A stretch of DNA of 29,061 nt from a virus: the IMG/VR virus record IMGVR_UViG_3300032011_000082, positions 1 to 29,061 of that record. One strand, 5' to 3'. Shown here in pieces: positions 3,001 through 25,494 of this stretch. The position numbers and the translations under genes are program-made. Position 1 is the first letter of the stretch, and each line of letters begins with the position of its first letter. The notes under the pieces are model-generated. The model had not been told where the DNA came from. It saw only the letters and a list, made by a program, of their open reading frames with translations, and ran no database searches.

Positions 3001-6000
3001 TGCGCTCCATGCCGCGTAAAGCGATGTTGCGACTAATCCACCGGATAAAGGAGGCGCTATCCCGAACGGTAAATTATCTAAAGCCGGTGTGATATGGTCG
3101 CCTACAAATCGCGTATATTTTTCACCGCGCAAATGCTTTCTCCATTCGGTTATATCAACGGGATTATTATTGCTATCAATCAAAACAGGTGTAGCGGTAT
3201 TAGCATTATGTCCGTAGTATTTAGTGTTGATTTGTAATACTGTTTTAGGTAAATATCCTGCATCAAACATCATACCTGCATTTCTTTCTGTTTGTGTTAA
3301 ACCTCCCATATGCGCGTTTGTTGCAGACCCAACGATGCTTGCGACCGGCGCAGTTTGTGAACTTGATGCTTGAATGCCATAATCGGAGACTAAATCAACG
3401 CTGAATAAATGGTTGAGTGGAGTAACCTTTTTCTTTGAATTAAACGCTTTAATTTTAATAGCAGTTTCGGCGTTATCACCAAGCCATTCACTATATTTTC
3501 GACCATCCGGTGCATACATATCACTACAATCAAAATCTTCTCCGTCTTCGTTGTTAGGGTCAATTGTGAATGCATGAGCGACAGCCGCCGCTAATAGTTC
3601 ATCAGTAACAATTGTTGTTTGATTGAGATGAGGACTGATAATAACAGGCGCAGTTCCGTTTGATGAACTTGTAGGACCTCTCATGGCATTCGTGTTGAAA
3701 TGATTTACTTTCATATCATCAACACCAACACCTGTTAAACCAAAGAAACCATGTTCGCCATTATACGCATTATGGGTTCTGCCCGAATAATGTAATACTC
3801 GACCTACCTGTGCCGCCGACCCCGTATAATTTGTTGGACCCTGCGGAATAGCCAACCACAACAACCCGCTATCGGGGAAGCCTAACCATCCGAGAACATC
3901 AGCATCCGCACCTTCGGGTAAGTTATGCCAAATACCTGTATTTTGATTTCCGACACCCGATGCTGATTTGAAATAAATAGATTTAGGATGAGCGAATCCT
4001 GTTATTGATAATGATAATCCGGTAACTGTAACTTGCGCGTTTGTTCCTGTTAAACCAAGAATATCACCTACTGCATACCCGCTACCTACGGCGGTTACTG
4101 CTGATATACCGCTAACAGCCCCTCCGCCCCCAACAGTAACAGTGATTGATGCACCACTACCTTGATTTGCGCCGGAGATATTAAACAAGGTGAATGTTCC
4201 TGCCGTAACACCACTACCTGTTGTTGATACTGATAATTGACTTGTTGCGGCAATAGTGCTTGTGTTTTCAATGGTGTTATCACCAATACTCACGGCATAC
4301 CCGCTATTATGAGTTCTAATCCCACGCCACTTATTACCTCTCCATGAGTTCGCGCTATCTGCTGTTGAAGAAACTTGGCTTTCGACCGGAGTTCCCGAAC
4401 CTGCAACTCCCCACATGTTACTACCGATAGTGAATCCACCTTGCGCTACATCACGGTCGTCAATATAAATTACAATTTCTTCATCTATGGTTGATGGTAA
4501 TTTTGTATTTTTATGAGTGAATGATTCTCCGCAAGTCCTATACACCATACGAATGATGTGATTTTTTCCACGATGGTCTGTTATTTTGAATCCATACAAA
4601 GGCTCTTTTCCTATCGCATCATCTCGGCTTTCATCCGTAGGAACATAAGAATCATAAACGCTATATTTCGCATCCCCTGTTCCAACATGTTTTCCGTATA
4701 TTGTTTGAAATCTTGAAGTTGAATCACCATCTGCACCAAAGCCCCATTCTCCCGCATCGGGTGCGAATCCCGGCACACCCGAAGCAACAAGTCCGCCAAA
4801 ATTGATTCTGCCAACTGCGCGTGTTCCTGTCTGCAACCCTTCACGAACTGTCATTTTTGAATTGCCGTCTTCAAATGATTCCATATTAATGGTGTTAGAG
4901 TTTCGACCCGTTGTGCTTTCTGTGTTAGGTGTGCTACCTGTGTAATCATGAGTTGGTGCGACAGTGTTTGTATTGTATTGAACATCATAACCAAGATTTT
5001 GAGAATTGGTTACATCTCCTAATTCTTCATCAAGAGATGCATATTCGCGCAAAGTGGTTATTGGCGCAAAGGGTTTTCCGTTTTTATCAATAGGCATTGG
5101 TGCAGGATGCATATTCTCTCCTGCTATATCGGGTGCGGCGCAGTAGTAATTACGGAAACGACCACCATGACCTACTAAGTATTGAGGTCTGTATTCCGAT
5201 TGACCCTTGCTGTTATCCAACCATACGCAAAAGTTGCGTCCACTTGCACCCGGAACTGTGCTGTGAATCACAATACTATACCCTTCATTACCGTCAATAT
5301 CTTCAACCACTCGACCTATATGAGCGCGCATATAACCCATATGTGAACCGCGATTGTAAGAAGTGAATGCGCTATCATCCCAAAATGGTGAAGGGTCGTG
5401 AGTTCCACCTGTGGTGGCAAAGTCAGCATGATGGTGCGCAGAAGTTGGGTCGCTTGGTTCGTATGTGCTTTCCCCACTTGCTGATACTGCGCGACGATTA
5501 ATATCGAATCTTTCACCTTCGGCGGAGTATTGGTCGGATGGTCGTCTTTGACTACTTCTCCCGTTGATTGCTCCTGCTTGATTGATAAGACGCACTATTT
5601 CTTTAGCGGCGGCTTCTATATCTGTTACACCATCTTTGATACCAACTTCACCAAAATCAATAGTTAGTCGTCTTGCAAAGTCCATCGCATACCAATGAGG
5701 TAAATGTTGTAGCGCAGGTTCATAGTGTAAAGTAAGGTCTAAATTGCTACCACGCTTACCTTTCATGCATAAAAAGGCAGGTATTACGCGTGTTCCATCC
5801 GGTGTATCAAAGAATGTTGAATGGAAATCATAAGCGTCAGCCGCGCTACTTCTTATTTTTGCTGATTCGGTCTTTAACATATTTTCAGCATGTCTTGTAT
5901 TTGCCGCGCTAACAGAAATTGAACTTGGCTCAACTCGGTCATGTTCGGCTGATGTAATATCCGATGTTTTCACTACATGCTGTGTTTGGCGAGCAGGTCT

Positions 6001-9000
6001 TGAGAAATTACCTAAAGTGGATGTTTTATAACCATCATCCATAAGATACCATGATGCGTGAGCATAAGCACCTTCTATGAATACGGAATTGCCATGTTCG
6101 GCATGTATTGGATAACTAACGCTGTTGATTGTTTCTGTGTAAGTAGCAGAATTAGAAGTGAGTCTATTTTTATCTTGAGTAGCGAACCCTGCCGCTACAT
6201 CTAACCCGTTTATGATAGGTGTTTTTGCGCTTGTTTGGACTTGCATATGTAAATCATGGAATGCGATAAACTCACGGTCATGCGCTACATCATAGAGTAA
6301 TACCCGCGCATGTTGTTCTGTGCTAAGATAAGGGTCGAGATACGCCACAATTGGAGGATTGTTGGTATGTCCGAGTTCAGTCCAATTAAGAGAAATTGTT
6401 TTATTGACATGTTGAACAAAGTTGCGCGCAGTTTCAATACATGTATTACCAATTAAGAAGTTCTCAAGAGGTAATGTATCTCGCGCTTCGATACCTAAAT
6501 TACCCTTACCTCCATTGAACTCATTCCATACTTCATATTCATTGAGAACGCCGCGTGATTTCGCAAATAATCCTTCAATAGCATGCGGGTTAGTATAATG
6601 CATATTCATCCAAACAGTATCACCATATCGCAATCCTCCCGGCGCGTATGGATGATTCCATGTTTTATTGACTGTGCCATCTGCAAGTTTGTAAGGAGCG
6701 ACTGTGAGTGATTCTATGGATTTAACGACCCACACATCGCCCGGACTTGTTGAACCGCTTGATGTTAGAATACTAATTTGATTAACATTGGCTGATGAGT
6801 CATAAGTAATGGTCCCTGTTACACCTGTAAGTTCATTTACAGCCTTGTAATGATAATTGGTGGGTAATTCACCTTTAGGTAAATCACCTTTGAAAGTTAC
6901 ATTATAAGGATTAGCACCACTAACATTTGATAAAACAGTCAATTTAGAACATCCGCTTTCAATTCGCGCAATGTGAGGATTAGAAAGTGGTCCTGCCTTG
7001 AACTCAACAGCACTCACATATTGACGCAACCCATAGTCGATATTACCTCCTTGAGTTTGCACATTTGCGCGGTCATAATAAAACGGACGACGATACTCTT
7101 GAGCCGAAGTTATAGTGTCGTGTGTTGTATCGGTATCGAGGGGTTTGAAAATCTTGTATGGTTGTTGACCGATTGTTAAAACTGAACCCTTTCGTATTGA
7201 GACGAAGAAGTTCGCACTGAAATTACCTTCTGTTAATAATAATCTAATTCTTTTATTAGTTCTATCTTCATACGGCGCTACATTACGCATAGCATAGTAG
7301 CACCATTCTCCATTATCGAGAATTATTTTTCTCATCCAATTTTCATAATTGCTACCACCATTCCGAACATTTCCACCTGCGCCTTCATCACTATCCGGTA
7401 TTCTTTCTATCCCTTCTGTAATGTTGAGTATCACGCTATATTTGCTCGCATCAACAGCACCCATCGAACCTGCAATAGCGCGAGTTGGTTCGTTATTATA
7501 CCATCTCTTGTAGTAAGACCCGAATACTGTTTTATCAATAGCAGGTGAACTTCTTGAACGACGACCGACAGGGCTTGGACTCCAAGTGTGTGCTGTCATT
7601 GTAGCATCAAGATGTATTTTCATACTATTGTCGGGTCCGGGGAATATATCTTCTTCTCTATTTTCAAAAAATTGATTAGGGAATAATGCTATTTCTGTGA
7701 GTGCGCGTGTTGAAGCATATTGTGTTCCTAACTGATAGTCGTGAGAAATTGTTCCTAACGATTGAAATAATCTATCATTGACTGTTGTTCCATCTTCACA
7801 TACACTTTGGCTGTCGAATAACGGGTCAAGAATCAATTGAGTCCCGACTCTTAATACATTCTCTGTAACGAAGTTTGCAAATGAATCATGCTCATTACCA
7901 TTAGCATGAACAAAACTACCCGATGATAACAAACCCGTAGCGGTATTAAATGTGAATGCTGTTCCTGTTCTTGAAATATATTCAGCATTAGCACCATTCA
8001 GCATATACACCCTACCCGTTGGAGGGAAACAAAATGTTCCCCAAGATGCAAGATTTGCTGAATTGTTGTTTAGAGGTTGAACTGTAACTGTTCCGGCTGT
8101 CGTATCGACAGCAATTACTTCAACTGTGCAATCCCTACGCGTGTTCCAACCTACGCGTGAAAGAGGTGAAGGGTCCCACGATGGCTTTGTATTAATAGCA
8201 CCTTGTCCTGCACCACCAAGAGTAACTGATACAACAGGCGCTCCCGGTTGTATCTCTTTAACGATGTGGGAATCGGGAGAGCCGTCGCCTGTGAATGTTA
8301 CTGATTGGTCGGAAATATCATCCATTAAACCGCGCGCTCGTAAAATGAGTTCTCTTGAGCCTTTATTATCTGCAACTTGAAATGAATTGATTCTGCCTTG
8401 ACCTTGAATATATTCAATCGTAGCAAAAGTATGGTCTGCTGAATTATCTTTAGTGCCTACAACTCTCGATAGTTGCATAGTTCTGTTTTTGCGCGAAGGT
8501 TGAACTATGACATGGTGATAACTGCCTTCGATGTAATTGTCAATAATATCAAACATTTCAAATGCCGCGCCTTGTTGAGAAGCGTATTGTTCTGTAACTT
8601 GATGAGAAATAGTTGTGCCTCCTGTTGGTGGGGCGTTTTCGGGTTTTGAAATAGGACTAAGAATCAATTTATTATACACAGAAGAGTGTTTTATTTCTTC
8701 ATTTGAACCATCAATAGCGAGAGGAATGGTATTTGGTAAATCTGTTGCAAGAGTAGGAGTGTAGTTTGAAGGTATTCGAGATTCATTCAAACTGTATTCT
8801 TTTTGAGAACCTCCTGTATTATCACCAACTAATCTATGAGCAATCATAATAGTTGAAGATTCGCCAACTGCTTCGGATGTTAATGTTACAATTCCTCCTG
8901 CCGCGTGTATAAGAGGGTTAGAAGCATTAGCGATATGATGAGCAACGGTGTTACCATTTAGAATTGTATTCGCGCTTGGGACTGTCTTCTCCACTAACAA

Positions 9001-10863
9001 ACAAGGATTACTTACGCCCATTTTGTTTCCAATCAAATCTATGGCTTTGTAGTGTATTTCAACATACGGACAAGATGTGATTGTTGATACTTGCATAATT
9101 GCAACGCGCGAAACATCTTCGGGTATCATATGAAGTGTATGAGCAGGGTCGCCCGCTTCAACATCGTTAAATCCATGACCCTTCAATAAAAATGGTCTAA
9201 TGTCGTCAACACCTATTCCGATAACTCCGTCTTGGGTGCTATCAATTGAAGTCATACCATTACGCACAACATCTGTTACCGTAGCGCTTGTTGTTACTGA
9301 ATGTATAGCACCATAAAGGGCTGTGTTAGTCAATGATATTTTTGAATTGATAGGTAATTGGTCTTTAATTCCTAAATTAGCGGCAGGGAAATGAACTCTA
9401 ATGTTATCAGCAAGACCGTCAATGGTGCGTATAATAGTGTGTTCCGATGAAGGTGGTAACATTCTTAGATAATGATGTCCTTCGCTATAATTGTAAAAAT
9501 GACGACCGTTATGACCTCTTTTTAATTTATCATCAATAGTCCAATTAGCCGAAGAAACCGTAAATGGATTTCCACTTTCATTTACAGAACACTGTCGAGA
9601 ATAGATGAAACCATGAAAATCATTCCCGCTTTCATCAATCACCATTGCACCTGTTCTATCAATTGCTTGACTCGCCATACCTGCCATTTGATGCGGTTTT
9701 CCTGTTTGGCTATCAATTAATAAATCGGAACGAATAAGAACCATTGTGCTATCATGTGCTAAATGTTTTGTTGAATCGTAAGCAGTTCTTGCATGTAGCA
9801 CACCTCGCGCACCATATGTTGCATCAGTATCAAAATCAAGATGAATACTGTTAACGATAATAGTTCCTGCGGCGTTAAGGCTAACTAAACGCACCCTTTC
9901 GGGCGGTTTGCTATTTGGTAAGCGACTCATAACATCTGTCCCTGTTGGATTAATCAAAAGATTCCAAGCGCAATGAGCGATGCTAACTACTTGCTTACCG
10001 CCCGGATGTCCGGTGTTTATAGCGCGATAATTACCAAGAGATTCGGGAGTGTAAGTTCCTGTAAATATATCATCCTTTCCGCTTATCAATCGGTAAAGAG
10101 TTTGCACTTGTGTAGCGTCAAGAGTAATAGTAGTTGAGTTCGCGCTAAGAGCGCTTTTGATATGAAATATCTCCGAATCAACTTCAATAGGTTCTTCAAA
10201 TCTCCATATACCTATCGTTCCCGATTCTTTAGTAACAGGTAAAGGTCGTAAATCGGCTGTCGGAACACCCTTTTTCCAATGAATGCTTTCGATATAACCT
10301 CTATATTCACCACCTTTACCACCGATGTAAAAGTCTTGAGTATTGATGCCGATAGAGTATTTTTTATTCAATTTTTCATATGCTATAAGTTCACCATTGA
10401 TGTATAACTTTAATTGATTTTCACTAAATGCTCCGATAATATGGTATATTTCACGCTGTTCTGTATTCAAACCTACATTATTAGATATGAAAGAATCTGC
10501 ATTTGTGGGATAATTGTGTGCGCTTTTGACTGAAAATGATACTCCTTCTTGAGTATGAATTGTAAAAATAGCGGGCGCGGGCGCTCCAACACTACCCATT
10601 CTTAATTCAAACACTTCATCCTTACTTGCTATAATACCACCACAATCGGGAGAAATCCATGCTTCTAAAGAGAACTTACCAAGTGATTGCATTGAAGTTT
10701 TCATTTGTCTATGATTGCTCCCATCTTGAAGGACATGAGAAGATGTGCGCGCACCATCTGTTAGTTTGTGTCCTGTATGGATAAATCCACCTTGAGGGCA
10801 TACAACGCTATCATTAACTCCGTTGAAAAACAACGCGCTACTTGATGCACCAAATACTGCCAT
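1..10863 (-). CDS. Giant tail tip / fibre protein with N-terminal LamG-like domain (3' end outside window)
   Basis: The frame runs from ATG at 10863 to base 1 (3621 codons) with no in-frame stop that I could find, and continues past the left edge. It starts one base after the distal tail-like gene. Residues about 55-225 look like a LamG/concanavalin-type jelly roll: LGKFSLEAWI, then LKLYINGELI, then FYIGGKGGEYRGYIESIHW, then GIWRFEE. This fold commonly binds carbohydrates or proteins. Glycine-rich GxGY repeats occupy about residues 2191-2282 and 2706-2940. The remainder is rich in Ser, Thr, Gly, Asn and aromatic residues, with no signal peptide or membrane segment seen. Its position after tape measure and distal tail genes is that of the tail hub, tip or fibre. 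That it is a virion surface and host-recognition protein is inference; I recognise no enzymatic domain. Confidence 0.85.
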   Translation of the reverse strand, partial: MAVFGASSSALFFNGVNDSVVCPQGGFIHTGHKLTDGARTSSHVLQDGSNHRQMKTSMQSLGKFSLEAWISPDCGGIIASKDEVFELRMGSVGAPAPAIFTIHTQEGVSFSVKSAHNYPTNADSFISNNVGLNTEQREIYHIIGAFSENQLKLYINGELIAYEKLNKKYSIGINTQDFYIGGKGGEYRGYIESIHWKKGVPTADLRPLPVTKESGTIGIWRFEEPIEVDSEIFHIKSALSANSTTITLDATQVQTLYRLISGKDDIFTGTYTPESLGNYRAINTGHPGGKQVVSIAHCAWNLLINPTGTDVMSRLPNSKPPERVRLVSLNAAGTIIVNSIHLDFDTDATYGARGVLHARTAYDSTKHLAHDSTMVLIRSDLLIDSQTGKPHQMAGMASQAIDRTGAMVIDESGNDFHGFIYSRQCSVNESGNPFTVSSANWTIDDKLKRGHNGRHFYNYSEGHHYLRMLPPSSEHTIIRTIDGLADNIRVHFPAANLGIKDQLPINSKISLTNTALYGAIHSVTTSATVTDVVRNGMTSIDSTQDGVIGIGVDDIRPFLLKGHGFNDVEAGDPAHTLHMIPEDVSRVAIMQVSTITSCPYVEIHYKAIDLIGNKMGVSNPCLLVEKTVPSANTILNGNTVAHHIANASNPLIHAAGGIVTLTSEAVGESSTIMIAHRLVGDNTGGSQKEYSLNESRIPSNYTPTLATDLPNTIPLAIDGSNEEIKHSSVYNKLILSPISKPENAPPTGGTTISHQVTEQYASQQGAAFEMFDIIDNYIEGSYHHVIVQPSRKNRTMQLSRVVGTKDNSADHTFATIEYIQGQGRINSFQVADNKGSRELILRARGLMDDISDQSVTFTGDGSPDSHIVKEIQPGAPVVSVTLGGAGQGAINTKPSWDPSPLSRVGWNTRRDCTVEVIAVDTTAGTVTVQPLNNNSANLASWGTFCFPPTGRVYMLNGANAEYISRTGTAFTFNTATGLLSSGSFVHANGNEHDSFANFVTENVLRVGTQLILDPLFDSQSVCEDGTTVNDRLFQSLGTISHDYQLGTQYASTRALTEIALFPNQFFENREEDIFPGPDNSMKIHLDATMTAHTWSPSPVGRRSRSSPAIDKTVFGSYYKRWYNNEPTRAIAGSMGAVDASKYSVILNITEGIERIPDSDEGAGGNVRNGGSNYENWMRKIILDNGEWCYYAMRNVAPYEDRTNKRIRLLLTEGNFSANFFVSIRKGSVLTIGQQPYKIFKPLDTDTTHDTITSAQEYRRPFYYDRANVQTQGGNIDYGLRQYVSAVEFKAGPLSNPHIARIESGCSKLTVLSNVSGANPYNVTFKGDLPKGELPTNYHYKAVNELTGVTGTITYDSSANVNQISILTSSGSTSPGDVWVVKSIESLTVAPYKLADGTVNKTWNHPYAPGGLRYGDTVWMNMHYTNPHAIEGLFAKSRGVLNEYEVWNEFNGGKGNLGIEARDTLPLENFLIGNTCIETARNFVQHVNKTISLNWTELGHTNNPPIVAYLDPYLSTEQHARVLLYDVAHDREFIAFHDLHMQVQTSAKTPIINGLDVAAGFATQDKNRLTSNSATYTETINSVSYPIHAEHGNSVFIEGAYAHASWYLMDDGYKTSTLGNFSRPARQTQHVVKTSDITSAEHDRVEPSSISVSAANTRHAENMLKTESAKIRSSAADAYDFHSTFFDTPDGTRVIPAFLCMKGKRGSNLDLTLHYEPALQHLPHWYAMDFARRLTIDFGEVGIKDGVTDIEAAAKEIVRLINQAGAINGRSSQRRPSDQYSAEGERFDINRRAVSASGESTYEPSDPTSAHHHADFATTGGTHDPSPFWDDSAFTSYNRGSHMGYMRAHIGRVVEDIDGNEGYSIVIHSTVPGASGRNFCVWLDNSKGQSEYRPQYLVGHGGRFRNYYCAAPDIAGENMHPAPMPIDKNGKPFAPITTLREYASLDEELGDVTNSQNLGYDVQYNTNTVAPTHDYTGSTPNTESTTGRNSNTINMESFEDGNSKMTVREGLQTGTRAVGRINFGGLVASGVPGFAPDAGEWGFGADGDSTSRFQTIYGKHVGTGDAKYSVYDSYVPTDESRDDAIGKEPLYGFKITDHRGKNHIIRMVYRTCGESFTHKNTKLPSTIDEEIVIYIDDRDVAQGGFTIGSNMWGVAGSGTPVESQVSSTADSANSWRGNKWRGIRTHNSGYAVSIGDNTIENTSTIAATSQLSVSTTGSGVTAGTFTLFNISGANQGSGASITVTVGGGGAVSGISAVTAVGSGYAVGDILGLTGTNAQVTVTGLSLSITGFAHPKSIYFKSASGVGNQNTGIWHNLPEGADADVLGWLGFPDSGLLWLAIPQGPTNYTGSAAQVGRVLHYSGRTHNAYNGEHGFFGLTGVGVDDMKVNHFNTNAMRGPTSSSNGTAPVIISPHLNQTTIVTDELLAAAVAHAFTIDPNNEDGEDFDCSDMYAPDGRKYSEWLGDNAETAIKIKAFNSKKKVTPLNHLFSVDLVSDYGIQASSSQTAPVASIVGSATNAHMGGLTQTERNAGMMFDAGYLPKTVLQINTKYYGHNANTATPVLIDSNNNPVDITEWRKHLRGEKYTRFVGDHITPALDNLPFGIAPPLSGGLVATSLYAAWSAGTGYITEVEYGLENISGSGTAAGVTMAKRGSSGTTTFGGPGNNPFVGIDEVRNIGHSYAVGNNAWVYNYELSVFGSVNLIGSKPAGLLELTQGYGYTVGNHATTGGSGSGAVVKITAIKNGALGSNTINNAGTGYVVGETLTQSATTGSGIEAALIVGSVGGGGSGDITAYRITNTGSGHASSDVISFTGGSGSNFKITAVIIRDGVIESLDETPVSAGNGYSAGQTLTISGGTNGEVRINEVSTGTGYDSSVTYSLAGGSGSLAQVQVNTDGDGGITSVAEIMHWGANYYANGETLIVSGGGNNANLTVSRTNNARIVIQEITGYARTFIDDETVIPRQRIRCKNGWVGQTYRAGPLGREYAWTKRYGAVTSDNYTTTTAATDTFGGSDDLSWVEPKRLYYVDESILVYPVPDCFLMKTEDGSENWTEPLQGKHPKGIKSTDMTIYSQEFITDDHAQFSGLRLSGNTLGEPITYFRGAQDSVDHSVPLYFGGGFSGVTMDVNDGARVDYTSHNEHPYASGPTGCAGMQDIGEKMGSYALLDSAAMFAMFPGTPLCDQMHGTTVPPFANQDAILATDMDGNANNHTGVGATYTNVKVVKPSPIILRFAHPYARYADSDNSVAYVIFGPGQAAPKHWKGESQAMNTSIEPSGKWTVAAKHYAVLNGSTSVTFTAHTDTGHLLPNELHNGTLDSAANQLLPPTDAYGANNIYPGKAFRHWETPLGFANSNYNQTSAAHSRNISNHFGSPTSVNSAGPKTAHPFSHYKAIRRYPSPLTYAPEKLNFMIFQLDGGYSPGGSWFDNTIRKNPPHPTTSATVAASQTATWHSTTLTTGLNATMFRVGAAVATGYDTNADTTPPLDTFVIDATRCQNSEELGAIVAAAINTWPGPANLKAIGGSFLPSFQDAQRQDRYAWVELNRGVLPGSDPLDSYDDTNGLVTLTSNMPATLPVNGWIRLSNGTNAFYGYYSNRSDNTFILGANYRSGANKLEDPTVATGASSVV
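2045..2745 (-). repeat. Glycine-rich GxGY repeat block in the giant tail protein
   Basis: Around residues 2706-2940 of the giant protein, units of roughly 40-50 residues recur, each with a GxGY-type turn (GYGYTVG, GTGYVVG, GNGYSAG, GTGYDSS), a short strand, a TGGSGSG-like loop and then a V-x-I-x-[ND]-G segment. This looks like a repetitive beta structure such as a fibre shaft or a string of small beta domains. The DNA has diverged, so these are protein-level repeats. Confidence 0.75.
4020..4290 (-). repeat. Second GxGY repeat block in the giant tail protein
   Basis: About residues 2191-2282 contain one to two units of the same type (GSGVTAGTF, then a serine/glycine loop, then GSGYAVGDILGLTG). 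The block lies about 420 residues N-terminal to the main repeat array of the same protein. Confidence 0.65.
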
Positions 10864-10864
10864 A

Positions 10865-12064
10865 TCAAAGCCCCACAATCATATCAATCGGTTGGAATGT
10901 AACACTACCTTCGTATATGTTATTTCCTGCGTCATATCCAAAGTTCATTCCTACAACAGTTCCGCGTATTCCTGTGAACTTATCGGTAACATTGAAATCA
11001 GTTCCGAACTCATTGTAATTTCCAATACTGCCTTGCTCTTCAATAGAACGCGCACCTGTAACAATTAACAAGTTGCGCGTAACATAACCATCGTTAGAAG
11101 TTGTATTGGATTTTTTTTGAACAAGAGAATTATAAGGGATTTGAATACCAACAATATAATCTCCCGACCTATCTGCAATTGAAAAAGAAGTATCAAGACC
11201 ATGCTCATCGCTTTCGTTATCCATCCCAACATCAATAAGATTACCCGACATACCGGCAAGATTCGCATTACCTATCGCCGCGATAAGGTCTTGGAGTTTA
11301 TCACCCGCGCTTTTACAGTTATGCAATGTGCCTCCACCAAACAATTCAAACTTTGGTTTAGTAAGAGTTCCTTTATCACTCCAAAAATCAGGTGTAGCGT
11401 TATTACCATCCGGTCCTAATTCAACTGATGTGATTGTTAATTTTGAACTACCCGTTGACGCAATAGAACCTGCACCTGCTGATATTGTTAGCGCATCTAA
11501 GATAGTATCACTTGTTGAACCTGTGCTTGTTAATTGAACATTAAATGAATCGTCTTGTGTAAAAGCGGCAACTACTCTCGCCGCAAGTTGTGCGCCTGTT
11601 GTTACAGACTGAATACCTACTGTCAGTATAGGCGACCCTGTGGCGTATGTATGGCTTGTTGTGTCTTTGTCAAACTTAATTGTGATAGGAGCGCGCAACC
11701 TGCTTTTGTTAGTGTATGCTGTTGCGAGTTCAAATGTTTTATCGTCTAAATCCTCTTTGGTTATAGAGCCACCATTACCCACCATAAAGTAGTCATTACC
11801 ACCACCGGATGTGTCAGCACTTAGACCGAAATCAATAGTGCAGAATGCGGCATCTTGTTGAAACGATGTTGCCGAGCAATCATCATCTCGCAATATACAG
11901 TCGATTTGAATATCAGTTTGAACTGCGTTTATGTCAATAGCCAATCGTTCTGCGAGAATCGGAATGGGTATTACCGGAATTGAACGAGATACGCTTAGCG
12001 TGTATGAAACAGCATCAAGTTCAATCACTTGGTCGTCTTGCCTAATCAATCTAATTCTTGACAT
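10865..12064 (-). CDS. Distal tail (Dit)-like protein
   Basis: 399 aa, ATG start overlapping the tape measure stop by one base (TAATG). The N-terminus (MSRIRLIRQDD, then RSIPVIPIPILAERL, then NAVQTDIQIDCIL) is a beta-rich start of the kind that forms a ring at the tail tube end. A long Thr/Ser/Gly-rich middle (about residues 65-290) and a beta C-terminus (FTGIRGTVVGMNFGYD, EGSVTFQPIDMI) follow. A gene directly after the tape measure normally encodes the distal tail or baseplate protein that joins the tube to the tip. The call rests on position and beta character rather than a diagnostic motif. It is longer than a minimal Dit, so the middle may be an inserted carbohydrate-binding or decorating domain. 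The giant tail gene follows after one base. Confidence 0.6.
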   Translation of the reverse strand: MSRIRLIRQDDQVIELDAVSYTLSVSRSIPVIPIPILAERLAIDINAVQTDIQIDCILRDDDCSATSFQQDAAFCTIDFGLSADTSGGGNDYFMVGNGGSITKEDLDDKTFELATAYTNKSRLRAPITIKFDKDTTSHTYATGSPILTVGIQSVTTGAQLAARVVAAFTQDDSFNVQLTSTGSTSDTILDALTISAGAGSIASTGSSKLTITSVELGPDGNNATPDFWSDKGTLTKPKFELFGGGTLHNCKSAGDKLQDLIAAIGNANLAGMSGNLIDVGMDNESDEHGLDTSFSIADRSGDYIVGIQIPYNSLVQKKSNTTSNDGYVTRNLLIVTGARSIEEQGSIGNYNEFGTDFNVTDKFTGIRGTVVGMNFGYDAGNNIYEGSVTFQPIDMIVGL

Positions 12065-13824
12065 TACAATGCACCTCTCCTGTTACCATACCCTCGTCCG
12101 CCACGGTTCATTTCTTCACGGATAGCCTCACCAATTTCGCGAGCAAGAGCGCGCTTATCGGTTCTATCTGTGATACCGCTTGCATTGATATTAATTGTTA
12201 TTGGGCCTCTATTACCGCCGCCTAATCCAATCCCTTGAGGGTTATTCTTCTTGGTTAGGGGTATGACAGCCTCCGGTCCATCTTCACCAATCATTGCAAT
12301 CGTTGGATTATTCACTATACCACCTTTCGCGAGTTTCGGTATTCTTGGCAATCCAAACTTCTTACCACCAATCTTCGGAACCCATTTAGGTATCTTGATT
12401 GTCATTTTCTTAGCGAACCAATTGTAAGCCTTTATCACTTTATTAATTATCCCTTTAATGGTATCTGCCGCTACTCTCTTGAACATTGCAGGTATTCCCA
12501 TAACCCATGCAACAATACCTCTCCATCCTTTCTTTCTTGCTTTTTGAAATGAAGTCCATAATTTTGAAACAAAGTTCCAAATAAATACGAATGGGAATGT
12601 AATGATACCGATAATTGCTCCCCCTACTAAGATAATTACACCAATTACTACTTCAACAGCAATGATTACTGTGAGTATAATACCTGCTATAAATGCGACA
12701 ATCCATTCTCCCGCCCAAATCAAACCGTCTAAAATCCATGTTCCTGCGATACATAAGAACGCCCAAATCTCATCCCAATACTTGATAACCATAACAACCA
12801 CAAATATCACAAGCGCTATGATAGCAAGCGGAACTATACCAAAACCGAAAATAATTGCAAGACCGCAAGCAATAGCGACGGCACTTATCGCCGTAACAAC
12901 CCATGCCATCCATCCATTGATTTTACCTGTTAAAACCATCCAAATACCAACAATACCACCAACGACAAGACCAACTGCTAACAGTGCTAAACCTAACGCT
13001 CCCATGAATGTGCTACTTAATGCGGAGATAGTTAGCGCAGTTCCACCTAACCACAATTTCATAAGAATGAATACACCGACAAGAACCATTCCCGCCACCG
13101 CCGCCGCCGCTAATGCGGCTTCTGCGCTTCCTGTGTGTTTCTTAACAAGTTGGTATGTGCCTACTACGAGTAATAATCCGGCGGCGAGAAGGGCGGCAGG
13201 TGCGCCGAATAAGAACCAAACAGGCAATGCTAACACCAACGCGGCAGTAACAAGATTTAACGCACCCAAAAAGCCACCCTCACCTTCACCTGTGAAGGCT
13301 AAAACCAACCCTTGCATCGCTTGGTCGAGAAAAGGTATGCCATCCGTATAATCAAGCAAAGGAGATTCAGCGCCTTGAAACGCGAGTGAAACTGCCGCGA
13401 TAGCAAATCCAACAAGTAAGAATATCGAAAGAATACCAAATATATTCATTGTCAATCTTCGCCATAGCGACGCTTGTTCCTCGACCATCTTGTTCATATA
13501 TTTTCCATAAGCAGTAGCGCCTACTACTGACACCATCCACTTGGTTAACCCTGTTGCGTTTTTCTCCACTTCTGCTCTTTGCTCATCTGTTAACTGTGTT
13601 GATTGCGTTTGTAATTTGTTAAAGAGTCTAACTTGCTTACCCATCCCCATAAGAGATTTTCCAAACTGAACAATAGGGTTCTTCTTGAATGCTGATTGTA
13701 ATTTACCTTGTTGTTTCTCCAACACACCTGCTGTTTTACCATAAGCGTTTCCAACAACACCCAACTCTTGTAGCGCTGTTTTCAAATCAGCGAAGTCTTT
13801 GGATAGTTGTTGAACATCAGTCAT
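12064..13824 (-). CDS. Tail tape measure protein
   Basis: 586 aa, ATG preceded by AAGGAG. Residues 1-120 are helical and charged. About residues 127-420 hold a long series of hydrophobic segments (for example IFGILSIFLLVGFAIAAVS, LAIIALVIFVVVMVI, AVEVVIGVIILVGGAIIGI). A basic, Trp-rich region follows. Residues 498-523 carry the C-terminal signature of many tape measure proteins (LAKGGIVNNPTIAMIG, then EDGPEAVIPL). Such proteins set tail length during assembly and are ejected into the host envelope with the DNA. At the usual 1.5 angstrom per residue this length predicts a tail near 88 nm. The tail assembly chaperones lie directly upstream and the distal tail gene directly downstream, as expected. 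The protein would act inside the tail tube and the hydrophobic part may insert in the host membrane. Confidence 0.92.
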   Translation of the reverse strand: MTDVQQLSKDFADLKTALQELGVVGNAYGKTAGVLEKQQGKLQSAFKKNPIVQFGKSLMGMGKQVRLFNKLQTQSTQLTDEQRAEVEKNATGLTKWMVSVVGATAYGKYMNKMVEEQASLWRRLTMNIFGILSIFLLVGFAIAAVSLAFQGAESPLLDYTDGIPFLDQAMQGLVLAFTGEGEGGFLGALNLVTAALVLALPVWFLFGAPAALLAAGLLLVVGTYQLVKKHTGSAEAALAAAAVAGMVLVGVFILMKLWLGGTALTISALSSTFMGALGLALLAVGLVVGGIVGIWMVLTGKINGWMAWVVTAISAVAIACGLAIIFGFGIVPLAIIALVIFVVVMVIKYWDEIWAFLCIAGTWILDGLIWAGEWIVAFIAGIILTVIIAVEVVIGVIILVGGAIIGIITFPFVFIWNFVSKLWTSFQKARKKGWRGIVAWVMGIPAMFKRVAADTIKGIINKVIKAYNWFAKKMTIKIPKWVPKIGGKKFGLPRIPKLAKGGIVNNPTIAMIGEDGPEAVIPLTKKNNPQGIGLGGGNRGPITININASGITDRTDKRALAREIGEAIREEMNRGGRGYGNRRGAL

Positions 13825-13836
13825 TTATCTCACTCC

Positions 13837-14100
13837 TTAATCGCTGAATGGCATGGGTGTTCCCGCGTCTGTTCCTGCTACGCTCATTTTGCCCTTAGAG
13901 TCATTGGTCATTTTCTCCATTTCTTCTGCTTTAATCTTTTCAGCCGCCGCCGCGAATGCGAGAGATTCTTCAAACTCATGTATCGACATATCCCATACAT
14001 CGCCTAAGCGTATTCCGTAATGTTTCGCTACAAAATACGCGTAAGAGTTCATATGTATCTCTAAGTCAAGGTCTTCAATTTTATGGGCGGGGGTTTTCAT
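13837..14100 (-). CDS. Tail assembly chaperone, downstream (GT-type) part
   Basis: 87 codons from ATG 14100 (MKTPAHKIEDLDLEIHM, then IRLGDVWDMSIHEFEESLAF). The helical N-terminus followed by a charged, low-complexity end is typical of the second reading frame of siphovirus tail assembly chaperones just before the tape measure gene. There is no convincing Shine-Dalgarno sequence before ATG 14100. The frame is open upstream to tandem TAA codons at the CCCTTTG heptamer (14139-14145). It is therefore probably made mainly as a -1 frameshift fusion with the preceding gene, giving a 223-aa product: 123 aa, then 13 linking residues, then these 87. In lambda the equivalent gpGT recruits tail tube subunits to the tape measure and is absent from the virion. 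Confidence 0.8.
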   Translation of the reverse strand: MKTPAHKIEDLDLEIHMNSYAYFVAKHYGIRLGDVWDMSIHEFEESLAFAAAAEKIKAEEMEKMTNDSKGKMSVAGTDAGTPMPFSD

Positions 14101-14117
14101 GAAAGAATAAACTGTGT

Positions 14118-14507
14118 TTATTCGTTCTCCCCATCGCTCAAAGGGTTATTAATCAAATCCTGTGGTTGCGGTAATAGCGCGGTAATCTGTTGAGCAACAT
14201 ACGGTTGCAATTGCATCATTTGTGTTGGTGTCAAGCGAGGTTCAGTCTTTTCAATACACTCCGCGAACATATGTTTCCAATAAGCGGCAAGGTCAATGTC
14301 AACTCCGCCTTGTGCGGTGATGTTCAAAAAGGTCTTGATGGCATTTTGCATTTGCATAAAGGACAATTCGCGCACCCACACCTTCAATCCAATATCGGGA
14401 TTGTCGGGGTCTGCACTTATCATATGTTCTTTCGCTGTCGTATTTACCAATAGGCTTACTGCGCTGTCAACCAACTGTGTCGGTTTCTTCTGTTTCGTCG
14501 GATTCAT
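14118..14507 (-). CDS. Tail assembly chaperone, upstream (G-type) part
   Basis: 129 aa, ATG preceded by AGGAAGTG. Mostly helical: KVWVRELSFMQMQNAIKTFL and LAAYWKHMFAECIEKTEPRL, ending PQPQDLINNPLSDGENE. Length, predicted helical content and position (after the tube gene, directly before the tape measure) match the G-type chaperone, which coats the tape measure during tail assembly. The start overlaps the SAP-domain gene by 41 nt, which is long for this compact block. An ATG at 14423 is the alternative, but it would cut into the fold and lacks the better ribosome site. The slippery heptamer near the 3' end directs a share of ribosomes into the next frame. Confidence 0.8.
   Translation of the reverse strand: MNPTKQKKPTQLVDSAVSLLVNTTAKEHMISADPDNPDIGLKVWVRELSFMQMQNAIKTFLNITAQGGVDIDLAAYWKHMFAECIEKTEPRLTPTQMMQLQPYVAQQITALLPQPQDLINNPLSDGENE
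14139..14145 (-). promoter_or_regulatory. Probable -1 ribosomal frameshift site (CCCTTTG)
   Basis: Read on the minus strand in the frame of the upstream chaperone, the codons are AAC CCT TTG. C CCT TTG therefore fits the X XXY YYZ slippery rule. In the -1 frame the two preceding codons are TAA TAA, and the frame is open from CCC TTT onward into the downstream chaperone frame. So the heptamer lies just where a -1 slip becomes productive. I see no obvious downstream hairpin. Confidence 0.7.
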
Positions 14508-14919
14508 TACTTACACTTCCTGTTTCATCGCTTGATACTGCCTCTTGCGAGGGGGTATCTTCGGCCACTTCAACAGCCTCTTGCGAGGGGGCATCCGCGT
14601 CCAATAGACGGGCAACTAATTCCGCCTTCTTTCCTTTCACCGCTAATTGTTTAGCGCGACAAAGAGCGCGCAATTCTTCAACGGTTAGGGAATTGTAATC
14701 TGTTGGACCCTCTTCTTCAAGAGGTGTTGTTTCTTCAACCACTTCTTCTTCAAGAGGTGGTTCTTCGGGAAATGGATTGCCGTCTGTCTTAGCGGCTTCG
14801 GGATTGAATACTTCTTCTTCGATGATTTCTTCTTCAAGAGGTTCTGCAATATATGCGTTTTTTTCAACAGCAACCCATCTTCGGGTTCGCGCTCCGCCTA
14901 AGTGCATACTCTCTCGCAT
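14467..14919 (-). CDS. Acidic SAP-domain protein
   Basis: 150 aa, ATG two bases after the stop of the preceding gene. Residues 76-108 form a SAP-like helix-turn-helix (NSLTVEELRALC, then QLAVKGKKAELVARLLD), a motif family usually linked to DNA or RNA binding. The rest is strongly acidic and low in complexity. PLEEE recurs at about residues 27, 55 and 66, and TPSQEAV/APSQEAV near 110 and 122, so internal duplication is visible in the DNA too. No enzyme domain or membrane segment is seen. It sits between the tail tube and the chaperones, where many siphoviruses have no gene. It could be a tail accessory protein or an assembly factor. The function is unknown. Confidence 0.75.
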   Translation of the reverse strand: MRESMHLGGARTRRWVAVEKNAYIAEPLEEEIIEEEVFNPEAAKTDGNPFPEEPPLEEEVVEETTPLEEEGPTDYNSLTVEELRALCRAKQLAVKGKKAELVARLLDADAPSQEAVEVAEDTPSQEAVSSDETGSVSNESDETEETDTVG

Positions 14920-16386: not shown

Positions 16387-18834
16387 TCACAATCCTAAAA
16401 ATGCATCGTGTGAAATAACGCGAACATGCTTCGGCATGATTGTCATTTCACTCTTGATTACACCCTTATCTTCGGGGATAGGCATAGGTGCTTCACTGAT
16501 GATATAATCATCAACAACGATGATTACTTGTTCTCGGTTGCTACCTGCACCTGCCTTTGTAAGAGTGAGTGTAATTGGTTCTGTATATCCATGACTACGG
16601 TTAGTTCTGTATTCATGCCATAGTAGCGGGTCGGAAACAATGATTGTCATTTTCATTTCGTATTCAACTTGCTTCTCGATTGTCAAGTTTGGATTGCGCG
16701 AACCGCCAAATGGAACTTGCTCAAGTGATTGTCCGAGAGAGTTTCTTTCTTCTTTATATGCAGACCCACGAACTGTTAGAATGTTTTCGATGTTGTTGTT
16801 TCCTGTAAGTGAGAAGTTTGTGATTTGCGCGAGATTGATACCGAAAGCACTAATTTGCCCGTTGTAAAAGAAGTAAGGTTTCTCGGTGTTTGGTGCAATA
16901 CCCGCTTTCTTTCGTTCCGCTTTGCCGTTAGCGATGTTCTCAAACATTCGATGAGTGCTGTATCTATCACCTTTGTTGGCAGGTGTGTCATCTTCAAGAC
17001 GACCTGTATCTGTGTAGCAGTATAGCGCATCAAAGTTAACTGATAGTTTAACTTCTGCATCCGCGTCTGCGGCAAGTGAAAAATCCTTTACTTTACAACC
17101 TCTCCAAATACGAGTTAGTTGTTTGTTGTCGGATGCTGAACCCGGCGGTGCTTCGCTACCTGTCGCGCTTGCATTGTAAGAGCCTGTATTGCGTGTTCGC
17201 ATACTTGTCTCAAGAGTAAAAGAAGGAACAGTAGCGCCTTGATAAATTAAACGAGACATACGGTGTTGGATTTCTCCATAAGAAGCCGTAGTGGTGTTGA
17301 AGTTAGGCGAACCACCTGTGTTATCATCTTCATAAGCACAAACCTTCTGTGTCATGTTTGCAATAGCGTGGTCGAAGGTAAATGGTTCATCAACATAGAT
17401 TCGCTTACCAACAGTATCATGATAAAGAACACGGCGAATCTCATTGCGTTCTGCGTTTTCCATGTCTGTGCCGAGTCCATCATTACCCCACTTCTTAGAA
17501 CCTGCGGCTACTGCTCGGTCTGTTGGGAACTCAACTGCTGTTCCATCAACGATAAGTAAGTATTCTCCCGCGATAGGTCCGCTTGTCATTGTTCCTGTAT
17601 ATCCAAAGTAAGTATCACCTGCGGCGATAGGTAGTTCAGTATATCCTCCCCCCGGTGTCGCTTTAACAGTTGATGGAACATCAACAACCTGCGCGCCGAG
17701 GGCATAGTATAACCAACGAGCGCTGTTCATCATCATTTCGATAGCGCCACCTTCATTCTTCATGCTTTGAGGTTCTTGAATGACAACATCACGACCAAGA
17801 CCAATAACATGGCTTCGACGGATTTCGACCTTTGTTTCCGGTAGTGATACCGTAGCGGCAAGTCCAACAAATTGGTCTGTAAGAACGGACTCATCGGATA
17901 ATTTCGCTGATGCGTTGTAAGTCATTCCTGTGTCCATTGTTGGTGTTCCGATTGTGTCAATGAGTATTTCGTCATTAGCACCCGATGCGCCATTTTCTTT
18001 CATCTTTGGAGTAACTGTGATTACATTTGCGCTATTGGCTACAATGGTGTATGTGTTACCTGTTGTAGCATAATCGTCAGCATCATAATTTGCGCTTGAG
18101 CCTCTTACGCGAAGTGTCGAACCAACAAGCATTCCCGCAGGATATTTGAGATTTTGATTTGCATCAAACATTCCTGCTTTTGCTTGGGTGAAAGTAATAT
18201 CTGTGCAATCGCTATTTGCACTATTGGTTGTTTTTGTCATTAACAAACCACCTGCTGTAAGAGTTGCTACGGTTGCCGTTCCGCCTGTTCCTGTTCCAAG
18301 AGTTAAAACATCGCCTACATTATATCCTGCACCACCGGCAGGAGCCGATGCTGTGAGAGCAGTAATAACACCGTTAGAAATAGTGGTTACTACAAACTTC
18401 AATCCACTACCGCTACCACCTGTCATTGTAATAACTTCATTCGCGGCATATCCACTACCACCTGCGGTCATAGTGTATGTTACAACAGCACCACCCGCTA
18501 CGGTATTGATTGTAGCAGTAAATCCTGTTCCGACACCACTTGATGATGCTTGTGTTACATTATCACTCCCTGCATAAGTTGCTCCTGCATCATCAACTGC
18601 TGATGTTATAACAACACCGTTTGCTATTGAGGCGATAGCAACTGTTGCGTTACCATCACCTGCGCCGCCGGTTGTAGCGACGGTCGCTACTGAATAACCC
18701 GAACCTGCACTTGTGGGGGAAGTGGTTAGCGTCGCTACTGCACCTGCTCCAAACGCACCATGCTTAAGCGCTACTCCGCATTCATGTCCGAATGTTACTT
18801 CTGCTAAATCACCTTTATACACTGTCGATACCAT
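16387..18834 (-). CDS. Major tail tube protein with inserted GxGY repeats
   Basis: 815 aa, ATG preceded by AGAGGA. The N-terminus (MVSTVYKGDLAEVTFGHE), the segment VSLPETKVEIRRSHVIGLGR followed by ARWLYYALG, and the C-terminal half (ITNFSLTGNNNIENILTVRG, TMTIMPKH-like strands ending EMTIMPKHVRVISHDAFLGL) read as a beta-barrel tube protein with a central elaboration. About residues 29-205 are an insertion of glycine-rich repeats (GSGYSVA, GSGYAAN, GAGYNVG), separating the first strand from the core. The gene follows the tail terminator and precedes the chaperone/tape measure group, the normal place of the tube gene. It is much longer than usual tube subunits, so the extra parts would decorate the outside of the tail. 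Its identity as tube rather than another tail structural protein is inferred. Confidence 0.7.
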   Translation of the reverse strand: MVSTVYKGDLAEVTFGHECGVALKHGAFGAGAVATLTTSPTSAGSGYSVATVATTGGAGDGNATVAIASIANGVVITSAVDDAGATYAGSDNVTQASSSGVGTGFTATINTVAGGAVVTYTMTAGGSGYAANEVITMTGGSGSGLKFVVTTISNGVITALTASAPAGGAGYNVGDVLTLGTGTGGTATVATLTAGGLLMTKTTNSANSDCTDITFTQAKAGMFDANQNLKYPAGMLVGSTLRVRGSSANYDADDYATTGNTYTIVANSANVITVTPKMKENGASGANDEILIDTIGTPTMDTGMTYNASAKLSDESVLTDQFVGLAATVSLPETKVEIRRSHVIGLGRDVVIQEPQSMKNEGGAIEMMMNSARWLYYALGAQVVDVPSTVKATPGGGYTELPIAAGDTYFGYTGTMTSGPIAGEYLLIVDGTAVEFPTDRAVAAGSKKWGNDGLGTDMENAERNEIRRVLYHDTVGKRIYVDEPFTFDHAIANMTQKVCAYEDDNTGGSPNFNTTTASYGEIQHRMSRLIYQGATVPSFTLETSMRTRNTGSYNASATGSEAPPGSASDNKQLTRIWRGCKVKDFSLAADADAEVKLSVNFDALYCYTDTGRLEDDTPANKGDRYSTHRMFENIANGKAERKKAGIAPNTEKPYFFYNGQISAFGINLAQITNFSLTGNNNIENILTVRGSAYKEERNSLGQSLEQVPFGGSRNPNLTIEKQVEYEMKMTIIVSDPLLWHEYRTNRSHGYTEPITLTLTKAGAGSNREQVIIVVDDYIISEAPMPIPEDKGVIKSEMTIMPKHVRVISHDAFLGL
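18220..18750 (-). repeat. GxGY repeat insertion in the tail tube protein
   Basis: Residues about 29-205 contain three to four units with the pattern GxGY, short strand, [TG]GGxGSG, V-x-x-I-x-NGV[IV]T. They match in kind the repeats of the giant tail protein encoded at 2045-2745 and 4020-4290. Confidence 0.75.
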
Positions 18835-22903: not shown

Positions 22904-24061
22904 TCATTGTAGGTCGCGAATTGAACCGCTTGCACCAAAGAAACTACCCCATAGTTCACCCATAGTTCGGTAAAGTCCTTCTTGGCCGAGCCTGTTAATC
23001 GCGAATGGGTCGCCGGTTTCGATACCGGATTCAAAGTATTGTGTTGGAATTGCAGTTTGGAACCACAAGTAATCCGTGTCAAGGTAATAGATACGAGACA
23101 GTGTGTTTGCACCTTCATCCGGCATATCCTTTGTTGGGATAATTGGAACGCCATTGTAAGTCGCTACAATAAATCCTGCTTCAATACCCGGAACACCCTT
23201 CACACCGGAGTATGTAGGGGTGATTCTCTTAGAATCCATGAACCTTTGTTGAGATTGCAATAGTTGTTGAGCGCGCATAAGCGTATCATATCCTGTTAGC
23301 ATAACCTTTGGATTACCACCGCGAGTCCAAATCTGTTGGAATAATCCATCAAGTTGGTTTAGTGATAGGTTACGATTAGTCGCACTTGTTGAAGCATCGC
23401 CACCAACATCGACTTCTGCGCTATGGAAATCCTTGCTACCGTCGCGAGTAATTGAATACATATCGTGGTCGGTTAGAACATTGACTGAACCTTGTGTAGT
23501 GGTTTGCACAGCAGGGTCGGATGTTAGACGGTCAAGGGATTCAAAGTTGTTACCCGCAGGGGTGCTAACATCAACAAGAAGCATCTTGTTAACCATTTCA
23601 GCGTGATGCTTACCCATTTCTTCTTTGAGAACTTGGCGAACATCTCCAAGACCATCATCCTTGTCGGACAAGAACATGCTCACTTCGGATAAGTCAAAAG
23701 TGTGCGCAATAGTCTTTGGTTTAGCCGCTACATGCAGGAACTCCGGTCTTTTGGTTTCCGGTAGTGTTCCGTTTTCTGCAATACCGCCGGTAACTCCGCT
23801 TTCAGCGCGCTCGGTTAGAATACGCCATCCGCTTCTTTCCCACGGCTTCTTAGGAAGAATTGAAAACGCGTTAAACTCTTGGTTTAACTGCGACCAAACC
23901 TTTCGACCATATACTGCTTGATAGGTTCCCGCAGTAGTTGACATCATAGGACTGTCTGCTTTCAAAATGTCTCCGCTTGAGTAAGTGTAGCCTGTTTGAG
24001 CCGCACCACCATAGTAGTATCTTTCCATGTCTTGAACTGTTCTTACATAATTTCGTGCCAT
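22904..24061 (-). CDS. Major capsid protein (HK97 fold)
   Basis: 385 aa from ATG 24061 (MARNYVRTVQDMERYYYGG), which has GAGGGGAGAG upstream and lies five bases after the protease stop. The longer frame reaching 24115 overlaps the protease end and is not needed. Features of the HK97-fold capsid subunit include an N-arm (VWSQLNQEFNAFSILPKKPW), a long spine-helix region (VRQVLKEEMGKHHAEMVNKM), and an A-domain-like end (SRIYYLDTDYLWFQTAIPTQ, then GLYRTMGELWGSF). It directly follows the protease-scaffold gene, as in HK97-type modules. It would form the icosahedral shell. No separate delta domain is seen, so the scaffold function probably lies in the protease C-terminus. Confidence 0.85.
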   Translation of the reverse strand: MARNYVRTVQDMERYYYGGAAQTGYTYSSGDILKADSPMMSTTAGTYQAVYGRKVWSQLNQEFNAFSILPKKPWERSGWRILTERAESGVTGGIAENGTLPETKRPEFLHVAAKPKTIAHTFDLSEVSMFLSDKDDGLGDVRQVLKEEMGKHHAEMVNKMLLVDVSTPAGNNFESLDRLTSDPAVQTTTQGSVNVLTDHDMYSITRDGSKDFHSAEVDVGGDASTSATNRNLSLNQLDGLFQQIWTRGGNPKVMLTGYDTLMRAQQLLQSQQRFMDSKRITPTYSGVKGVPGIEAGFIVATYNGVPIIPTKDMPDEGANTLSRIYYLDTDYLWFQTAIPTQYFESGIETGDPFAINRLGQEGLYRTMGELWGSFFGASGSIRDLQ

Positions 24062-24066
24062 ATTAT

Positions 24067-25494
24067 TCACTCTCCCCTCAATGCTTTGTTGGCTATGCGG
24101 TGAACATCGTCCCACGACATATTAGCCATTTCCGTAGTATCGGGAATTGTAACTGATGTGGACGAAACACTCTTAGTGAGTGTTTCTCCACTACCGGATG
24201 AAACGCGGCTGATGCGGTCATCAAGTGCAACAACAGCCTTTTGTAATTCAAGAAGAGGTTTGCGGGAGTCAAACTTTGCTCGCGCTTTCTCATTCTTTGC
24301 AATTCGCTGTTCTTTAGATAGGCGGTCTGCGAAGTAATCTCCGAGAGAGCCTTTGAATTGTTGTTCGACTGATGCCGCCTTATACACTTCGTAAGCGGCT
24401 TCAATATCGGATTGAGAAACATTTTCGGGCATGATAAAATCTGCCTTAATTACATTCTTATTACCGCTTGGAGCGCTACCCCAATTTTGCTTAGGTCGCT
24501 TTGAGGACTCGCCTTCACCTGCTCCTTCAAGAGAACCTTGTCCTCTATGGTCGTAGCCGGATTGTCCGGGTCCATATCCTTTATTCACGCTATCGAAATG
24601 TGCGCGAGCATCTGCAATATCATGTCCGTTGGACTTTGCAGTTCGCTCAAGCCAATTAAGATAGTCCATTGTTATCATATCATCTGCTTTATTTGTCATG
24701 TCATCACCATACATCATGTCTTCATCCTCGTCATCTTCATCTTCATCATCGTCTCCGAGTCCGAGGTCGAGTTTTGGTTTGTCCTTTTTAGGAGGGAAAG
24801 GCGCGTCGTCTCCGCCATCATCATCCATTGAAGGTGCATCATCACCCATTGGAAAACCTTTGTCGGAGTCTTCATCGTCTTTCTTCTTTTTATCATCGTC
24901 TTCTTCATCATCCAATTTCTTGGAGAGTCTTTCTAATACGCTTTGCAGTTCGCTCATTGGGTCAGTCATAGTATCACCTGTGTCTTCCTTGAGGATGCGA
25001 AATTGTGCTTCGGGGTTAATTCCCTTCTCACAAATCGTTACCTCATGGAGTTCCATACGACGAATCTCACGGTAATCACCGCGAGTAGCGTCGCTTTTGT
25101 TGACGCGCTCAAAGGCTTGACCGCCTATTGAGAACGACCGAAGGTTGCCCTTTCGGATTTCGGATGCAACTTCGCGAGCCTTTTCGATGTCGCCGCGTAG
25201 TTGAATAACAACAAACATGCCGGTATCATCCACTTCGGATTTCCAAACACGACCGTTGCTATCTGTGTAAGAAGGGATTACCGTTCCTACTTGAATGTTA
25301 GAGTGTGCAAGTTGCACATTGCGGAATGCTTCTGCTTTCATGAATCCGCCAAATGCGTCTTTCAAAGCGCTACGAGTAATAAGGTCGCCTTGCTTGTCAA
25401 CCATCTCGACAGAAGCATAGCCCGCTACAACCAAATCATCACCGAATCCCTTGAGAACAAGGGGTGAAGTGGGTGAAGGTGCGAGAATTGCCAT
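24067..25494 (-). CDS. Prohead protease fused to acidic scaffold-like domain
   Basis: 475 aa from ATG 25494 (MAILAPSPTSPLVLKG); a TTG four codons earlier is possible. Residues about 15-170 match HK97-type prohead proteases (S78/U35): VDKQGD (32-37), the catalytic candidates His64 in QLAHS, Ser122 in SFSIGG, and Glu151 in ELHEVTI. Residues about 185-270 are extremely acidic (long Asp/Glu runs with Lys patches). The C-terminal part is charged and helical (EAAYEVYKAASVEQQFKG, KAVVALDDRISRVSS). In this family the protease matures the procapsid and is itself removed. A C-terminal extension of this kind often acts as the internal scaffold, which is inferred here from length and place before the capsid gene. 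Confidence 0.88.
   Translation of the reverse strand: MAILAPSPTSPLVLKGFGDDLVVAGYASVEMVDKQGDLITRSALKDAFGGFMKAEAFRNVQLAHSNIQVGTVIPSYTDSNGRVWKSEVDDTGMFVVIQLRGDIEKAREVASEIRKGNLRSFSIGGQAFERVNKSDATRGDYREIRRMELHEVTICEKGINPEAQFRILKEDTGDTMTDPMSELQSVLERLSKKLDDEEDDDKKKKDDEDSDKGFPMGDDAPSMDDDGGDDAPFPPKKDKPKLDLGLGDDDEDEDDEDEDMMYGDDMTNKADDMITMDYLNWLERTAKSNGHDIADARAHFDSVNKGYGPGQSGYDHRGQGSLEGAGEGESSKRPKQNWGSAPSGNKNVIKADFIMPENVSQSDIEAAYEVYKAASVEQQFKGSLGDYFADRLSKEQRIAKNEKARAKFDSRKPLLELQKAVVALDDRISRVSSGSGETLTKSVSSTSVTIPDTTEMANMSWDDVHRIANKALRGE

Follow-up and report, generated by a model that had tools for sequence, protein, structure and literature searches.

How is a tail chaperone frame translated when it overlaps the end of the gene before it in another reading frame and has no visible ribosome site of its own? 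The question is raised by a 29,061-nucleotide stretch of viral DNA (IMG/VR record IMGVR_UViG_3300032011_000082, positions 1 to 29,061; hereafter, the window). Many phages obtain a pair of tail-assembly helper proteins from a single start by a −1 slip, and an initial annotation of the window proposed that the heptamer CCCTTTG joins its two chaperone frames in this way. It described frameshifting in this gene pair as well known, which is fair; it has also been predicted in haloarchaeal viruses. Judged from the sequence and that of its relatives, CCCTTTG is very likely a programmed −1 ribosomal frameshift site in the tail chaperone operon of a tailed virus that is marine and probably archaeal.

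Anatomy of the site

The upstream frame, which resembles lambda G, lies on the minus strand at 14118–14507, encodes 129 aa, and ends with TAA at 14120–14118. It decodes the heptamer (14145 to 14139, minus strand) as AAC CCT TTG, so that C CCT TTG stands in the X XXY YYZ phase that had been annotated. The −1 frame is shut immediately 5′ of the heptamer by tandem TAA TAA (14151–14146, minus strand), also as described earlier, and then stays open for 102 codons until its stop at 13839–13837. This T-like frame (13837–14145, minus strand) would be entered by a slip, and we recomputed the length of the predicted product as 223 aa, the value given originally. The 0-frame stop of G comes 25 nt past the heptamer start. 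The earliest start codon in the −1 frame is an ATG 45 nt past the heptamer start, and no Shine-Dalgarno-like motif was found upstream of it, in keeping with the earlier remark that the downstream gene has no visible ribosome site.

CCCTTTG is the sole in-frame X XXY YYZ heptamer within the G gene. Such heptamers occupy 10 of 5256 codon positions in the 12 other genes of the window. At this rate, the closed interval that runs from the −1 stop to the 0-frame stop, eight codon positions long, would hold 0.015 by chance. None of 535 stretches of −1 frame inside those 12 genes reaches 100 codons.

Proteins and gene neighborhood

The order of genes in the window is tail tube, three further genes, G, T, and tape measure. 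The tape measure gene (12064–13824, minus strand) lies directly 3′ of T, has GGAG ahead of its ATG, and was recognized by PHROG matches (best E 5.5e-7). The tail tube gene (16387–18834, minus strand) lies upstream of G and was recognized by PF18906 (E 1.2e-9) and by a tblastn match to the HHTV-2 tail tube (E 2e-6). At 815 aa, compared with 643–644 aa in two relatives, the tail tube protein has extra length. Directly upstream of G, and overlapping it, is a gene for a SAP-domain protein (14467–14919, minus strand; PF02037, E 2.2e-12), which places a putative nucleic-acid-binding domain among the tail genes. At the far end of the window, positions 1–10878 (minus strand) form an open frame, 3626 aa or longer, that runs off the end of the record and probably encodes a large virion surface protein.

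In PHROG, G matched named chaperone families weakly, with a best E of 0.01 in the window and 0.001 across 22 relatives. When the G profile was run against five stretches of archaeal virus DNA (614 frames), the annotated chaperones of HVTV-1 and HHTV-2 ranked first and second (E 0.0018 and 0.016). Of the BFVD matches to a structural model of G (pLDDT 73.8), rank 2 is the HHTV-2 tail assembly chaperone (E 3.5e-6), and ranks 4 and 5 are tail assembly chaperones of Bacillus phages. A Foldseek search of the whole PDB with the same model gave no match at E ≤0.001; a second look at the PDB returned 3klu, YqbN, with a Z of 6.3 that is below the level safe on its own. YqbN is a chaperone of a defective phage. 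On the evidence of the predicted model, the upstream protein G has a tail-assembly-chaperone fold. T is modeled as a helical protein (pLDDT 78.5). In searches against protein families, the first T member matched no named family and a few others matched unnamed families alone; among archaeal virus frames, the best match to T was the T frame of HVTV-1 (E 0.81).

Conservation among relatives

To gather relatives, alignments of G, of the tail tube, and of T were run against viral contigs, and many of the loci so found overlapped. Both G and T were present at 49 of the 53 loci L078–L130, neither profile matching at L096, L122, L128, and L130, and at all 83 of the loci L135–L217. Dropping identical copies of the region left 28 distinct sequences, the window included, to which 14 more were added; the resulting set of 42 thus consists of the window and 41 viral-contig sequences, several of them near-identical. 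From the first 28 we drew 22 representatives that differ from one another by more than 5% and have a median pairwise nucleotide identity of 70%. Searches of phages by megablast with the structural region of the window, and by tblastn with G, gave no match. Genome contigs scanned with G yielded no relative and hence no provirus or host link.

In all 42 distinct sequences, the T frame is −1 relative to G and overlaps its end, and an in-frame X XXY YYZ heptamer stands at the site (CCCTTTA in 21, CCCTTTG in 17, and GGGTTTT in four). The last group (L213, L214, L215, and L217) has had its letters replaced while the rule is kept. An alignment of relatives had been proposed to show whether the heptamer, its frame, and the upstream −1 stops are conserved. 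The first two are, as the heptamer varies solely to other X XXY YYZ heptamers; a −1 stop adjoins the heptamer in eight of the 42, the window among them.

Confinement of the shift and coding constraint

In each sequence, the change of frame is bounded by the last −1 stop upstream and by the 0-frame stop. The upstream bound reaches offset 0 in those eight sequences, and the 0-frame stop comes down to offset 7 in four (L162, L166, L169, and L171). Therefore, if the site is homologous throughout, the shift is confined to the seven bases of the heptamer. In the latter four, the 0-frame stop lies directly behind the heptamer (CCCTTTGTAG/TGA/TAA), so that slipping there would compete with termination; a short GGCC-type hairpin lies a few bases past this stop-adjacent site.

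The codons of the heptamer are also unusually static. Its proline codon is CCT in 22/22 representatives, with no synonymous change on the tree, compared with 9, 8, 11, and 5 synonymous changes at four other conserved proline columns. The leucine codon is TTA in 16 and TTG in 6, which requires one change, compared with 4 to 14 at other leucine columns. The codon preceding the proline specifies five different amino acids (N, G, T, D, and S), with a third base of C in all 22. These parsimony counts rest on one tree made from the same genes, with the overlap left out. Just past the 0-frame stop, pN/pS is 0.465 in the −1 frame compared with 1.1 and 1.4 in the other two, and the −1 frame has no stops compared with 9 and 12. 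In eight representatives picked for a late first start, pN/pS over T columns 9–32 is 0.327. T is under protein-level constraint ahead of any start codon.

These observations bear on other ways of accounting for the locus. T could have an independent start, used through re-initiation or through internal initiation once G has ended, and the heptamer would then be incidental. An ATG or TTG does lie 45 nt past the heptamer start, close to the G stop, in the window and in several relatives, and coupled re-initiation over short gaps is generally possible, which counts in favor of such a start. However, the earliest ATG, GTG, or TTG in the −1 frame is at least 90 nt past the heptamer in 10 of the 42 sequences, and the constraint on T begins ahead of those starts. 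The frozen heptamer codons likewise argue against an incidental heptamer. The initial annotation held that separate ribosome sites in relatives with a synonymously changed heptamer would speak against a frameshift, but a Shine-Dalgarno-like motif stands near an early −1 start in just 4/42, at inconsistent starts. We consider an independent start for T very unlikely.

Slightly less likely still is that the heptamer is conserved through dual coding, the real shift taking place elsewhere in the overlap or by transcriptional slippage. Selection on Pro-Phe in the −1 frame, combined with Pro-Leu in the 0 frame, would yield CCCTTTR, and synonymous change is low not only at the heptamer but also at one further glycine column of the overlap. 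Nevertheless, the interval permitted across relatives is the heptamer alone, the GGGTTTT sequences depart from CCCTTTR yet obey X XXY YYZ, and transcriptional slippage is countered by the absence of a long homopolymer. Moreover, Pro-Phe need not be selected in the −1 frame, since tandem slippage would not decode CCC TTT. That the sequences are metagenomic contigs might suggest a truly continuous gene broken by faulty assembly or sequencing, but the −1 relation recurs in every one of the 42 distinct sequences, which come from many assemblies; because relatives share it, this explanation is refuted and we give it a negligible probability. Programmed slippage at the heptamer is the reading that we carry forward.

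Predicted RNA structure behind the site

A two-part hairpin is predicted 6 nt behind the heptamer of the window (14090–14132, minus strand). Its outer part pairs 14132–14129 with 14093–14090 and its inner part 14126–14116 with 14112–14102; the predicted energy is −15 kcal/mol (z −3.65), and the 5′ arm contains the 0-frame stop. Over the 22 representatives, the 60 nt that immediately follow the site fold better than shuffles, with a mean z of −2.72, compared with −0.33 and −0.08 in two control intervals. Over all 42 sequences, the mean for the same 60 nt is −2.4, and 17 other intervals at 30-nt steps range from −1.56 to 0.2. Predicted RNA stability is therefore highest immediately behind the site across the 42 sequences.

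Values of z ≤ −2 behind the site were obtained for 16/22 representatives and 3/14 added sequences, and folding predicts no stable stem for the most distant groups (L095, L172, L175, L176, L178, L204, L212–L215, and L217). The heptamer is thus universal within the set of 42 and the hairpin is not. RNAalifold consensus folding of 22 and of 16 sequences did not return such a hairpin, pairing CCC with GGG instead, and we therefore counted clade-specific stems. In seven members of the window's clade, 97.1% of cells are paired, compared with 30–57% when the stem is slid. In a second group of 16 sequences, a different two-part stem has 76% of cells paired, compared with 32–51% when slid. As the stems were picked by eye and helix scan on the same alignments as were counted, both sets of counts lean toward the chosen stems. 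Pair changes in the window's clade were not above those in shuffles (279/500). In the second group, the covariation score was above all 500 shuffles, mainly through one pair, an excess that kinship alone can mimic. Reading the sequences also suggested an upstream Shine-Dalgarno-like stimulator (AGGA in CCACAGGA...); it is not conserved, since other relatives show CCTCAAGA at that place.

Proposed mechanism

In the tandem-slip model of −1 frameshifting, the P- and A-site tRNAs both move back onto the −1 codons, here from CCT to CCC for Pro and from TTG to TTT for Leu. The former re-pairs well with a G34 tRNA, and the latter leaves a wobble mismatch, as in the TTTTTTG heptamer of the phage P2 E/E′ tail frameshift and the TTTTTTA heptamer of HIV-1 gag-pol. 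Both of these resemble the present site in having an A-site Leu codon, TTG or TTA, that slips onto TTT, and both differ from it in the first triplet, which is T there and C here. Under this model, the majority of ribosomes would read ...AAC CCT TTG... and go on to the stop, producing the 129-aa G-like chaperone. A minority would slip one base back, the tRNAs for Pro and Leu coming to rest on CCC TTT, and would produce the 223-aa G-T fusion; in the window, the slipped product would read ...Asn-Pro-Leu-Glu-Arg-Trp.... Slipping is probably made more frequent by the hairpin, which starts 6 nt past the heptamer. By analogy with gpG and gpGT of lambda, from which these roles are taken over (excerpt of PMC5009743), G would serve as a coat on the tape measure protein, with recruitment of the tail tube subunit falling to the T part.

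Placement of the virus and its host

All 11 phage records that match the major capsid protein gene of the window (22904–24115, minus strand) are archaeal viruses, as are all 11 that match the portal of one relative, G008. The protease finds its best matches in haloarchaeal viruses, with Vibrio, Aeromonas, and Roseobacter phages also matching, and the tail tube finds its best match in HHTV-2, with cyanophages also matching. A Cpn60/TCP1 chaperonin is present in 11/19 relatives' records. That of G008 is of the thermosome type, with scores against the thermosome models that fall short of their curated cut-off, and its 49 genome-contig matches are all archaeal by record title. PolB was found in 9/19 of these records and PCNA, sought in the same 19, in none. 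In two of the nine (G019:C1:27584–28504 and G020:C1:1186–2106), the PolB match has eight in-frame stops, which may reflect a broken gene, an insert, or an alignment artefact; the seven other records are unbroken.

Because capsid and portal match archaeal viruses alone and relatives carry chaperonin and PolB, the host appears very likely to be an archaeon. Judged from such matches, the virus is probably an archaeal rather than a bacterial tailed virus, a feature that was hidden from the initial annotation. A narrower assignment, to a host among the Poseidoniales and a virus that is a magrovirus or a near relative, is reasonably well favored by resemblance to what excerpts of PMC10160649 and PMC12999244 describe. 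The capsid protein shares 32–33% identity over 89% with those of HVTV-1 and the HCTV viruses, and phages gave no nucleotide match; the close protein kinship expected of a member of Druskaviridae is not seen.

Comparison with known systems

The locus resembles lambda G/GT in having a pair of chaperone frames ahead of the tape measure gene, with T in −1, a heptamer near the end of G, and no start of its own for T (in part after an excerpt of PMC5009743). As first annotated, its heptamer differs from GGGAAAG of lambda, and none of the 42 site heptamers is GGGAAAG; they are CCCTTTR, or GGGTTTT in one group. Also unlike lambda are the predicted hairpin behind the site in the window's clade and the probable archaeal host.

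In haloarchaeal tailed viruses, the chaperone pair likewise lies upstream of the tape measure gene, directly so in HVTV-1 as here, and the chaperones of HVTV-1 and HCTV-1 are annotated as joined genes, like the G-T proposed here. We read the heptamers as GGGAAAG in HVTV-1 and GGGAAAC in HCTV-1. Excerpts of published work give GGGAAAC, AAAAAAC, and GGGAAAG for HCTV-1, HCTV-2, and HCTV-5 (PMC5009743), and GGGAAAT for Hardycor1 (PMC7911831). Unlike those in the lineage of the window, none of these is CCCTTTR. HHTV-2 has two chaperone genes annotated apart (L132:3610–4553), and the first contains no in-frame X XXY YYZ heptamer, although it is the best named fold match to G; HHTV-2 may shift frame at a different site or not at all.

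In archaea, −1 frameshifting is rarely documented, one cellular case and a few haloarchaeal viruses being noted in a review (PMC8211752). The cellular case, fucA1 of Saccharolobus solfataricus, is given there as the sole reported −1 frameshift in an archaeal cellular gene, and it shares with the present site a slippery heptamer and a putative stem-loop (PMC8211752). It differs in being a cellular enzyme gene and in having been studied experimentally. We found no report in the open-licence literature of frameshifting in magroviruses or Poseidoniales viruses, or of CCCUUUR in tail chaperone genes. In one magrovirus article (PMC8651126), "frameshift" occurs in the reference list only. In the same literature, CCCUUUG and frameshifting come up together in a paper on a West Nile virus ORF, and CCCUUUA and frameshifting in one on Giardiavirus. 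Both the host group and the heptamer broaden the known range of this type of frameshift.

On balance, we lean toward regarding the site as a lineage-wide, undescribed archaeal −1 signal, in which the ribosomes of abundant marine archaea would decode CCCTTTR, followed a few bases on, in most of the lineage, by a stop-containing hairpin, with a stop-adjacent and a GGGTTTT sublineage. If so, these two sublineages would constitute a natural mutagenesis series for archaeal ribosomes. The comparison adds 42 distinct sequences with two kinds of heptamer, a clade-dependent hairpin, a stop-adjacent variant, and confinement to seven bases, and it supplies concrete constructs for studying slippage by archaeal ribosomes. 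It also corrects gene calls in these viruses, in which T would otherwise be annotated from a late start.
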